From NCBI RefSeq assembly GCF_002979435.1, contig NZ_PCOV01000003.1, positions 186,001 to 250,000 of the forward strand: a stretch of DNA of 64,000 bases, written 5' to 3'. The position numbers and the translations under genes are program-made. This document shows, piece after piece, positions 48,795-59,974 of this stretch (its first letter is position 1; every line of letters begins with the position of its first letter). The notes below the pieces were generated by a model that was not told where the DNA came from, made no database searches, and saw nothing but the letters and a program-made list of their open reading frames with translations. Source of the DNA: Microbacterium sp. MYb66. GTDB lineage: Bacteria; Actinomycetota; Actinomycetes; Actinomycetales; Microbacteriaceae.

Positions 48795-49946
48795 TCAGCG
48801 GAACAGCACCACCACGTAGACCGCGAACGTCACCAGGTGCGCGGCGCCGTGCATGGCGGTCACCCGCTTCGCGGCGAACGTCGTCACCGAGAGCAGCAGC
48901 GTGACGCCGAGCATCAGCAGGTTCGCCGGCGACTCGGCGAGCATCACGCTCTGCCCGGTGAGCATTCCGATGATCAGCACAGCGGGGATCGTGAGTCCGA
49001 CGGTCGACACCAGGGCCCCGTGGCAGAGGTTGACGACGCGCTGGGCCTCCCCGCCGAGAGCGGCTCGCACGGCGGTGATCGACTCGGGCAGGAAGACGAT
49101 GCCTGCGATGAGCACCCCGGCGAGGGCGATCGGAGCACCGAGGCGACCCAGTCCGTCGTCGAGGAGGGCCGCCATGTCGTGCGACAGGAGCACGATCGGG
49201 ACCACCGTGACCACCAGCAGCGCGAGCCGGACGATGACCTCGGTGCGGTGCTCGGCGATGACCTGACGGATGCCTCCGGTGGCCTCGGCCTTCTCCTGGC
49301 GCCGAGCGCTCTGCAGCAGGCGCGGATCGACCTCGGTGAAGTCGCTCGCCTGCGCGCCCATCTGTCGGTACAGGAAGAAGGCGTAGAGCACGAGCGTGAG
49401 GATGATGATCGGGATCTCCTGCGCGGTCGTGTACGCGCCGTCCTTGCCGATGAGGGCGGGGAGTCCGAACGCGAGCGCGACCAGCACGACCAGCATCGAC
49501 AGGTACGCCGAGGTGCCCGTGCGGTTGTGCGCCATGCCGCGATGGCGGAGTCCGCCGAGGAGGAGCGCGAGCCCGATGACGAGGTTCAGGATGATCATCG
49601 CGACGGCCATGACCGAGTCACGGGCGATGGTCGCGTGCTCACCCGGACCGAGCATGACCGCGGAGATCAGGATGACCTCGATGAGGACGATCGACAGGGT
49701 CAGGACGAGCGAGCCGTAGGGGTCGCCGAGGCGGTGCGCGAGGGCCTCGGCCTGTTTCACGACGCCGAACGCGCACACCAGGATCACGGCGATGATCGCC
49801 CCGAGCGCGACGATCAGGACCGGGCCGGCAACGGGCGCCGCCAGCATCGGGTGGAGGACGAGGAGAGCGGCGAACGCGCCCCATCCGAGGACGACGCGGA
49901 CGATGTCCGTGACGCCGATCAACTGCTTCAGTTCCGTGCGTGACAT
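48795..49946 (-). CDS. chaA: Calcium:proton antiporter (ChaA/CaCA family)
   Basis: A 383-residue antiporter with ten to eleven helices. The two alpha repeats are visible: GPGEHATIARDSVMAVAMIILNL is the first (Glu in GEHA) and FLPESITAVRAALGGE the second, with the acidic ion-binding Glu. An acidic loop of about 40 residues (EVDPRLLQSARRQEKAE) joins the halves. AAGGAG precedes the ATG at 49946; a longer frame reading would cross the next promoter. Confidence 0.88.
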   Translation of the reverse strand: MSRTELKQLIGVTDIVRVVLGWGAFAALLVLHPMLAAPVAGPVLIVALGAIIAVILVCAFGVVKQAEALAHRLGDPYGSLVLTLSIVLIEVILISAVMLGPGEHATIARDSVMAVAMIILNLVIGLALLLGGLRHRGMAHNRTGTSAYLSMLVVLVALAFGLPALIGKDGAYTTAQEIPIIILTLVLYAFFLYRQMGAQASDFTEVDPRLLQSARRQEKAEATGGIRQVIAEHRTEVIVRLALLVVTVVPIVLLSHDMAALLDDGLGRLGAPIALAGVLIAGIVFLPESITAVRAALGGEAQRVVNLCHGALVSTVGLTIPAVLIIGMLTGQSVMLAESPANLLMLGVTLLLSVTTFAAKRVTAMHGAAHLVTFAVYVVVLFR

Positions 49947-50053
49947 CGCCGGACTCCTTCGAGGTGGGGCCGTCCCCGACTGATGACCGCGACCGGGTCG
50001 TCCCGGCCGCAGTGCTGTGTCAGCGCACTGCATCGCGCCATCAATCTTAGCAA

Positions 50054-58305: not shown

Positions 58306-59130
58306 TCACGCGCTTCCTGCGCGCATGAACTCCTCGGCGGCCCGCACCTGCTCCGCAGACGGACGGATGCCGGTGTACAGCACGAACTGCTCCAGCGCCT
58401 GCAGCGTTGCGACCTCGGCGCCCGTGATCACGGCCTTCCCGGCTGCGCGGCCCGCGGCGATCAGAGGGGTCTCGGCGGGAAGGGCGACGACGTCGAACAC
58501 GACCGATGCGGCGTCGATCGCCTCCGACGAGAACGACAGGGCGTGCTCGTCCGTTCCGCCGGCCATGCCGATCGGCGTGACGTTGACCAGGATGTCCGCA
58601 TTCACCTCGCCCGGGTCGTCCGTCCAGTCGAAGCCGTAGAGGTCGGCGAGGGCCCGGCCGTTCGCCTCGTTGCGCGCGATGATCGTCACCCTCGAGAACC
58701 CCGCGTCGCGGAAGGCTGCGGCGGTCGCCTTCGCCATCCCTCCGGAGCCGCGCAGCAGCACGGTGCCGGCGGGGTCGAGTCCGTTGCGCTCGATCAGCTC
58801 TGCGATGGCGGAGTAGTCGGTGTTGTGGGCCGTGAGAACGCCGTCGTCGTTCACGATCGTGTTGACCGAGTCGATCGCGCTCGCCGAGGGATCCATCCGA
58901 TCGACGAGGGCGATGACGTCCTCTTTATAGGGCATGGATATCGCGCAGCCCCGGATGCCGAGTCCGCGGACCCCCGCGATGGCCTGCGCGAGGTCGGTCG
59001 GCGCGAACGCCTTGTAGATCCAGTTCAGCCCGAGCGCCTCGTAGAGATGGTTGTGGAAGCGGGTCCCGTTGTTGCTCGGCCGCGCCGAAAGCGAGATGCA
59101 GAGCGTCATGTCCTTGTTGAGCAGCGTCAC
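58306..59130 (-). CDS. Shikimate 5-dehydrogenase-like protein
   Basis: A 274-residue AroE-family protein. The substrate site shows ISMPYKEDV with the catalytic Lys and AHNTDYSAI with the catalytic Asp; the nucleotide motif GSGGMAKATAAAF is a variant of the usual GAGGA. LVNVTPIGMAGG is the conserved loop. The length is normal. The GTG at 59130 is six bases after TACCCT (59137-59142), a leaderless arrangement; an ATG seven codons in is the alternative. No other aromatic-pathway gene is near, so a shikimate/quinate or AroE-like side role is open. Confidence 0.85.
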   Translation of the reverse strand: MTLLNKDMTLCISLSARPSNNGTRFHNHLYEALGLNWIYKAFAPTDLAQAIAGVRGLGIRGCAISMPYKEDVIALVDRMDPSASAIDSVNTIVNDDGVLTAHNTDYSAIAELIERNGLDPAGTVLLRGSGGMAKATAAAFRDAGFSRVTIIARNEANGRALADLYGFDWTDDPGEVNADILVNVTPIGMAGGTDEHALSFSSEAIDAASVVFDVVALPAETPLIAAGRAAGKAVITGAEVATLQALEQFVLYTGIRPSAEQVRAAEEFMRAGSA

Positions 59131-59287: not shown

Positions 59288-59312
59288 GTTCATCCTCCCC
59301 TATGGTGAAGGT

Positions 59313-59447
59313 GCATGCACAAGGGGCTTGATCGTCTCCGTCTCTCCCCACGAGACGGCGGCCCACCCCAGGGGCAAAGACGATCCGTGCATGCGATTGG
59401 GCCCTCTCGAGTAGTTCAGTCCCCAATGGGCTACTCGAGGGGGCCGC
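59313..59447 (+). ncRNA. Candidate structured small RNA with C-rich hairpin loops
   Basis: TATGGT at 59301-59306 is followed by six bases and then the first stem. Outer stem GCATGCAC/GTGCATGC (59313-59320 with 59387-59394) encloses GATCGTC/GACGATC (59330-59336 with 59379-59385). Inside sit two hairpins: CCGTCTC/GAGACGG with loop TCCCCAC (59338-59358) and GCCC/GGGC with loop ACCCCAG (59361-59375). A third hairpin of 15 base pairs with one G-U pair (59400-59445) has CCCC in its loop and could terminate. C-rich-loop RNAs such as 6C pair with G-rich ribosome sites in Actinobacteria; membership in that family is not established here. Confidence 0.5.
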
Positions 59448-59477
59448 TATCGTTCATTCTCGCACCGAAGTTCAGAT

Positions 59478-59499
59478 TTGTCCCCCAAAAGGGGGACAA
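59478..59499. repeat. Perfect hairpin with nine-base arms and AAAA loop
   Basis: TTGTCCCCC and GGGGGACAA are exact complements around AAAA. It follows the candidate RNA and may be a further terminator or an operator; another short inverted repeat (AGCCT/AGGCT) lies at 59501-59522. Confidence 0.6.
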
Positions 59500-59550
59500 G
59501 AGCCTCGAAAAGAAGCTAGGCTGTTTCTGACGCACCCTCCGGTCGTCTTC

Positions 59551-59590
59551 GGCCCTCATCGCTCCCCCCGCGGTGAGGGCCACACCATTT
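59551..59590 (+). terminator. Hairpin with six-C loop and T-run
   Basis: A 12-base-pair stem with one U-G pair (59551-59562 with 59570-59581) and loop TCCCCCC, followed by ACACCATTTT. The T-run suggests a terminator on the plus strand; the six-C loop is the hallmark of 6C-type RNA hairpins. A TAGGCT box at 59517-59522 could start a second short RNA near 59529. Confidence 0.55.
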
Positions 59591-59659
59591 TCCGGGCGCC
59601 GCCTGCGGCCCGCGCCCGTGGATCCGTCGTGTGACGGGCGGATGCCGCTCGTGCAACAT

Positions 59660-59688
59660 TTGGATTACCTTCTGCCCGCGGCTATTCC
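59660..59688 (+). promoter_or_regulatory. Promoter of the cold-shock gene
   Basis: TTGGAT at 59660-59665, 17 bases, then TATTCC at 59683-59688. Transcription would begin near 59695, leaving a 5' leader of about 73 bases, as often seen for cold-shock genes. Confidence 0.5.
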
Positions 59689-59767
59689 CCTCGGGGTCTC
59701 CTCCACTAGCGTTAGCGATGTCGGGGCATCCCTGCGTCGGCTTCTTCACCAGCAGAACAGGCAGTAC

Positions 59768-59974
59768 ATGAGCACCCAGGGCACGGTTAAGTGGTTCAAC
59801 TCGGAGAAGGGCTTCGGCTTCATCTCCCCCGACGACGGAGGCGCTGACGTCTTCGCACATTACTCCGCCATCGAATCTTCCGGCTACCGGTCTCTCGACG
59901 AGAACCAGCGAGTCGAGTTCGACGTGGCGCAGGGGCCCAAGGGCCTGCAGGCAGAGAACATTCGCCCCCTCTGA
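59768..59974 (+). CDS. cspA: Cold-shock protein (CspA family)
   Basis: A 68-residue single cold-shock domain that binds single-stranded RNA and DNA and melts RNA structure. RNP1 is GFGFI and RNP2 VFAHYSAI, within the usual [18 protein letters not shown] start, split here at the motif. The frame is open upstream, but that extension shows no protein-like sequence. A strong terminator follows. Confidence 0.95.

Follow-up and report, generated by a model that had tools for sequence, protein, structure and literature searches.

In the 64,000-nucleotide stretch of Microbacterium sp. MYb66 DNA analysed here (hereafter the window), the plus strand almost certainly carries a real, conserved and structured RNA, which we call RNA A. 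Positions 59313-59450 (predicted ends) most likely yield a small folded RNA that shows three CCCC loops, as judged from its fold, from compensatory changes in relatives and from an excess of G·U pairs. RNA A is a member of a multi-copy Microbacterium family that is absent from Rfam. We favour the reading, at a probability of roughly 0.6, that RNA A is a trans-acting antisense small RNA (sRNA) which works through redundant C-rich loops and is present in several copies, similar to LhrC and to B11/6C.

Results

A sequence-only reading of the window had described at this place a -10-like box TATGGT six bases ahead of position 59313, followed by an eight-pair outer stem that encloses a second stem and two inner hairpins with the seven-base loops TCCCCAC and ACCCCAG. 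All these elements were found as described. The box (59301-59306) is conserved within CCTCCCCTATGGTGAAGG in 22 orthologues. The outer stem pairs 59313-59320 with 59387-59394 (98.3% of pair cells paired; two-sided changes in 4 of 8 pairs in the 22 orthologues), and the inner stem of seven pairs joins 59330-59336 to 59379-59385 (98.0% of cells paired). Hairpin 1 (59338-59358) carries the loop TCCCCAC at 59345-59351 and shows two-sided changes in five of its seven pairs; hairpin 2 (59361-59375) carries the loop ACCCCAG at 59365-59371, with two-sided changes in two of four. The third hairpin, which had been given 15 pairs, is present but has 19 (59400-59445, loop GUCCCCAA), seven of them with two-sided changes. 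We call it terminator-like; a clear U run was not seen after it. A good -35 box had been reported as missing, and indeed none is conserved among the 22 orthologues.

For 59313-59450, the minimum free energy (MFE) structure, the centroid structure and the fold drawn in the earlier reading were one and the same (-76.5 kcal/mol). The energies of 200 dinucleotide shuffles had a mean of -50.9 (sd 4.15), none was as low as that of the native sequence, and the resulting z was -6.17.

An alignment of the locus in relatives had been proposed as a check for compensatory changes. We aligned the 22 copies that lie at loci of the aroE-csp type, writing out by hand the structure first proposed, and found that 96.4% of pair cells pair and that 18 of 45 pairs have changed on both sides, with such changes in the outer stem, hairpin 1, hairpin 2 and the terminator-like hairpin. 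All five measures lay above those of all 500 shuffles. When the partners were slid against each other as a control, pairing fell to 34-44%; kinship can inflate two-sided counts, yet the slid versions keep the kinship and score far below. The inner stem showed zero two-sided changes within its own class (the 22 orthologues); across classes, all five pairs of the corresponding helix had changed on both sides. A different class 1 inner stem suggested by RNAalifold was dropped in favour of the MFE stem, with its 98% of cells paired. Over the 22 orthologues and the 32 family members described below, compensatory changes strongly support the earlier proposal of a structured regulatory RNA with C-rich loops.

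The mismatches also inform on the strand. Over all pairs, G·U cells outnumbered A·C cells by 87:12 in the 22 orthologues and by 98:5 and 105:15 in the two further counts; when only pairs that are Watson-Crick in both reference and majority were counted, the ratios were 44:12 (orthologues), 41:5 and 61:13. The excess of G·U over A·C cells indicates that the plus strand is the folding RNA. It also bears on the idea that the hairpins are plain terminators or DNA elements without any regulatory RNA, the repeated hairpin being merely a shared terminator. The terminator stem is the part best conserved between paralogues (majority identity 0.91) and was what first linked them, as such an idea would have it; however, covariation extends to the 5' domain, whose loops are kept, and on the plus strand G·U cells are in excess of A·C. 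We regard this explanation as scarcely credible.

The copy is not intact in all relatives. RNA A is absent beside its neighbour RNA B (see below) in two of them (loci L245 and L265), and in L020 the terminator loop has decayed, the class 2 model introduced below giving no match to that copy.

We searched 119 genomes of the genus with the DNA; at E<=0.01, 54 of them had matches, part of which covered no more than the third hairpin. This terminator-like hairpin led to other loci, which proved to be whole paralogues with different stems on the same plan: two hairpins, with loops like UCCCCAG, enclosed by an outer stem and followed by the terminator-like hairpin with loop GUCCCCAA. In the genome from which the window was taken (the window genome), the all-class covariance model described below found RNA A itself (contig C12, 106.9 bits), a copy at C14:117340-117489 (136.4 bits) close to a gene that its domains mark as radA-like, and a third, weaker copy with the three-run pattern at C1:46749-46876 (29.1 bits, E 0.031), downstream of ispH (LytB domain) and upstream of a DUF6264 gene. 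Three CCCCA-type runs at such spacing occur four times in this 3.88 Mb genome and not once in the reversed control, and three of the four matches we assign to RNAs of the RNA A kind. We also observed three TCCCCA-type runs, one of them in a hairpin loop, on the minus strand at C11:140938-141006 of the same genome (L115), between two genes that, by their translations, resemble those of a response regulator and of a sensor kinase.

Class 2 of these RNAs (29 sequences) pairs in 98.7% of cells, with two-sided changes in 9 of 43 pairs; four of five measures lay above all 500 shuffles, and the fifth (further pair types) was equalled by 47 of the 500. A covariance model built from class 2 only gave the copy in the window 56.8 bits (E about 1e-10), a score explained in part by the hairpin common to all classes; the terminator hairpin alone gives about 9-41 bits with this model on the opposite strand. 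Upstream of class 2 members, TGACA or TGACG stands in the -35 region of 36 of 60 distinct upstream strings. When 35 chosen loci were compared with the class 2 model, 33 were members on the RNA strand, L020 gave no match and L033 was weak; the E limit removed L018 and left 32 members. Among these 32, which cover all classes, 94.6% of cells pair (71.6% shuffled, 28-47% slid) and 32 of 43 pairs, or 274 cells, show two-sided changes (24.5 and 79 shuffled), with the reservation that this alignment was fitted to the model and hence leans towards it.

The stems and loops of the 32 members have fared differently. Majority identity is 0.53 in the stems of the 5' domain and 0.91 in the terminator stem, while CCCC is found in or at the loops of hairpin 1, hairpin 2 and the terminator hairpin in 32/32, 30/32 and 32/32 members, respectively, 'in or at' covering the loop and five alignment columns to either side of it (30/32 for the loop columns of hairpin 1 alone). 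The likeness of the terminator hairpin between classes is partly due to selection, because the paralogues were found through that hairpin; the CCCC counts for hairpins 1 and 2 are free of this selection. Fixed loops on freely changing stems point to the loops as the seat of function.

The family is widespread in the genus. An all-class covariance model gave matches at E<=1e-6 in at least 68 of the 119 genus genomes, a lower bound, as only 26 candidates per genome were scored and copies were thus missed. A search of 249 genomes of the family Microbacteriaceae (12 candidates per genome, so that copies were missed here as well) gave three matches at E<=0.001, all in Microbacterium and one of them in the window genome. 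When one genome from each of 40 genera was searched (79 candidates each), one foreign genus was matched; these matches were inverted repeats without CCCC loops and were rejected. The three-run pattern was not in excess in 118 genomes of other genera (45 matches, 57 in the reversed control), and two genomes of the same genus gave 7 matches against 0 in the reversed control. Across 84,980 species genomes, the terminator pattern found 87 stretches, 81 of them titled Microbacterium; the other six comprised three titled Microbacteriaceae bacterium, two actinobacterial metagenome-assembled genomes without a genus and one titled Stenotrophomonas maltophilia. The last is a 3,085-base contig (L172) that bears the Microbacterium terminator pattern, perhaps through contamination. 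Plasmid records gave three short, chance-like matches only. Within the family Microbacteriaceae, the RNA A family thus appears to occur almost nowhere else than in Microbacterium, to judge from these searches.

None of the 4227 Rfam families, which presumably include a model of LhrC, matched RNA A even at E<=10, and homology to LhrC was set aside on this result. No Rfam family reached its cut-off in the gap of the window that holds RNA A or at 15 further loci, taken from the family and its surroundings. As far as Rfam goes, the earlier suggestion of a new family is thereby borne out. The companion suggestion, that 59301-59447 might be a divergent relative of 6C, was not supported: a covariance search with RF01066 (cut-off 47 bits) gave no match at E<=10. 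The architecture differs as well. The 6C RNA consists of two hairpins, each with about six Cs in its loop; RNA A has three four-C loops, two of which lie inside an outer and an inner stem. Of the interpretation first offered, the structured C-loop regulatory RNA and the new family are supported, and the kinship to 6C is not.

A 6C-like RNA does lie next to RNA A. Both are located in a 637-base gap between an aroE-like gene on the minus strand (58306-59130; Shikimate_dh_N domain) and a cold-shock protein (csp) gene on the plus strand (59768-59974). RNA B, a conserved element on the plus strand at 59528-59591, starts about 80 bases downstream of RNA A and comprises about 64 nt with two hairpins and a T run: a short one (59529-59547) with the loop CUCC and one of 12 pairs (59551-59581) with the loop UCCCCCC (TCCCCCC in the DNA). 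Compared with the two C-rich hairpin loops of 6C, the loop of the 12-pair hairpin fits, and the other hairpin is short. A -10-like box TAGGCT precedes it at 59517-59522. RNA B scores 28.3 bits with 6C (RF01066), which is below the 47-bit cut-off; no other candidate scored in the window genome matches 6C better. Its own model, from an alignment of 14 distinct sequences, matches at E<1e-13 in 37 of the 119 genus genomes. Of 39 genus genomes searched, 11 have a 6C match of at least 36 bits; ten of these lack a match to RNA B, and one (G033) has both. RNA B may accordingly be a divergent 6C or a replacement for it. In the flanks of 20 6C-like loci in other genera, neither a csp nor an aroE motif was seen.

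The csp gene raises two other explanations for RNA A. The first is that the C-rich loops are a decoy which titrates an RNA-binding protein, for example the neighbouring cold-shock protein. The repeated, alike loops would suit such a role, and so would the csp gene downstream: the csp motif VKWFN is encoded no more than 450 bases past RNA B at each of the 30 loci examined. However, at the 24 paralogue loci examined, each over 2.6-6 kb, neither of the csp motifs VKWFN and KGFGFI is encoded, and it is the loop sequence itself that is fixed, not merely its pyrimidine content. We consider the decoy unlikely. The second explanation, a cis-acting leader in which RNA A would belong to a long 5' untranslated region (UTR) of csp with structural switches, draws on the common strand and on the order A-B-csp, kept in most loci examined. 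Yet RNA A has a terminator-like hairpin of its own and ends 318 bases before the csp start, RNA B has its own -10-like box, L245 and L265 retain B and csp without A, and the paralogues are not beside csp. A csp leader of this kind is therefore very unlikely.

Two further observations concern possible regulatory leaders in the window. The stretch 59640-59768 ahead of csp is well conserved, with the blocks GCAACATTTGG-TTACCTTCTG and CTAGCGTTAGCG in the alignment, and is perhaps the promoter and regulatory leader of csp. On the minus strand, a Guanidine-II riboswitch (49965-50009, 41.1 bits) immediately precedes a gene (48795-49946) whose product has a sodium/calcium exchanger domain; if this gene is the target, it would be an unexpected riboswitch partner.

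Between RNA A and RNA B lies a perfect palindrome, TTGTCCCCCAAAAGGGGGACAA (59478-59499, no strand), of the form GTCCCCC-N4-GGGGGAC, which begins 32 bases past the terminator-like hairpin of RNA A, recurs in the genus and is the predicted operator of RNA B. With one mismatch allowed, it was found in 114 of the 119 genus genomes (reversed control: 2 of 119). The window genome has two sites at up to one mismatch (control: none), which serve RNA B and one other place; at up to three mismatches the reversed control also matched once per strand. Among 118 distinct sites, the distance from the palindrome centre to a TANNNT box is 27-28 bases at sites of the RNA B type (28 in the window) and 30-32 at most sites of RNA A-type paralogues; at six loci (L027, L140, L159, L182, L218 and L342) there was no box within 45 bases in the C-loop direction. 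Other palindrome sites lead into more 6C-like hairpins or into new triple-loop RNAs. RNA A itself has no upstream palindrome in the window genome.

At RNA B, the palindrome centre is about 40 bases before the predicted start, a position that would suit an activator. We did not find the regulator, and the site was in none of the papers that a literature search listed. In another genus (L235), a near palindrome, TCCCCAAAAGGGGGACAAAA, precedes a 6C match, a hint that this operator is older than the genus.

The second palindrome site of the window genome (G000:C4:73548, L033, minus strand) and its counterparts L314, L316 and L340 show 24 bases from palindrome centre to box, followed by two hairpins with the loops GGGG and CUGGGG(A) and then, on different stems again, by a terminator-like hairpin whose loop is clearly G-rich only in L316 and L340. 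CUGGGGA is the exact complement of UCCCCAG. Among 128 flanks of 64 palindrome sites without marks of A or B, CTGGGGA occurs within 190 bases downstream in 18 and TCCCCAG in 13; the background for CTGGGGA is 0.78% of windows, or about one expected among 128 flanks, and some of the 64 sites are orthologues and hence not independent. Strand matters for these loci because the opposite strand would show CCCC loops. The order of promoter, hairpins and terminator, together with wobble pairs, both judged by eye, favours the G-loop sense.

These putative G-loop RNAs give rise to a further alternative for RNA A, namely that the C-loop RNAs act mainly on co-evolving G-loop RNAs (CUGGGGA) of the same palindrome regulon, with mutual titration. 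The G-loop hairpins after palindromes, in the window genome and in relatives, and the 18 of 128 flanks with CTGGGGA speak for it; against it, the G-loop sense is putative, the complementary strand would show CCCC loops, the sites include orthologues and RNA A has no upstream palindrome in the window genome. As an account of RNA A, we find it improbable. A wider picture, which we put forward tentatively and rate as rather doubtful, is a genus-wide network in which one regulator at GTCCCCC-N4-GGGGGAC would drive both rapidly diversifying C-loop sRNAs (RNA B and many RNA A paralogues) and mirror-image G-loop RNAs (CUGGGGA) built on a similar plan, the two kinds being opposed as decoys or targets through kissing loops.

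Discussion

Our preferred reading of RNA A as a trans-acting antisense sRNA implies the following course of events. RNA A would be transcribed from about position 59313 and would terminate near 59445-59450. Each CCCC loop could then nucleate a duplex with a G-rich stretch (UGGGGA or GGGG) of another RNA, probably near the ribosome binding site in most cases, and the outcome would be repression, either by a block of translation or by destabilization of the message. Several copies with three alike loops each would provide dose and redundancy, as in LhrC and B11/6C.

One prediction of this reading, that the loop complement is common at ribosome sites, was examined in the window genome. In 464 kb of this genome, CTGGGGA was present at the predicted ribosome site of none of 305 starts. 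GGGGA occurred 10 times in the Shine-Dalgarno (SD) zone and 2 times in a control zone, a modest difference in a test whose choice of starts is biased towards SD sites. The seed for loop-target pairing would be short (four to seven bases). Further points that weigh against the preferred reading are the absence of RNA A at L245 and L265, its decayed terminator loop at L020, the missing U run and -35 box, and the role of the terminator hairpin in the finding of the paralogues. A narrow target set, or G-loop partners, would fit these counts better than a global block.

Since the 5' stems turn over almost freely and the three alike loops are fixed, what the loops read can be tested directly by loop swaps. 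The shared palindrome offers a handle on the regulator and, if the G-loop RNAs are real, they and the C-loop RNAs would form a network of RNAs with complementary loops that answers to one control. Among the open-access papers listed in our searches, none deals with small RNAs of Microbacterium in its title or abstract.

RNA A resembles 6C/B11 (RF01066) in being actinobacterial and in having C-rich hairpin loops that are expected to pair with G tracts; it differs from 6C in its three loops of four Cs and its branched fold, as opposed to two hairpins with about six Cs. For B11, one C-rich loop, whichever of the two, is reported to be enough for repression of a reporter whose 5' UTR holds a six-G tract (PMC10470900).

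The closest parallel in organization is LhrC of Listeria monocytogenes. LhrC is reported to exist in five copies, to have three redundant CU-rich sites, including the terminator loop, with the site motif UCCC, and to bind a message at its ribosome site (PMC4132741). By its sequence, RNA A likewise has several copies in the window genome and three C-rich sites that include the terminator loop. In contrast to LhrC, it comes from a different phylum, has a branched fold with an outer stem, lacks an Rfam match and presents the motif (U)CCCCA in loops of seven and eight bases. A similar C-rich seed motif, the feature on which we compared them, is present in RsaE and further UCCC-loop sRNAs of Firmicutes that the same paper names (PMC4132741). 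Through the RNA A family, multi-copy sRNAs with several loops, as typified by LhrC, would extend to Actinobacteria.
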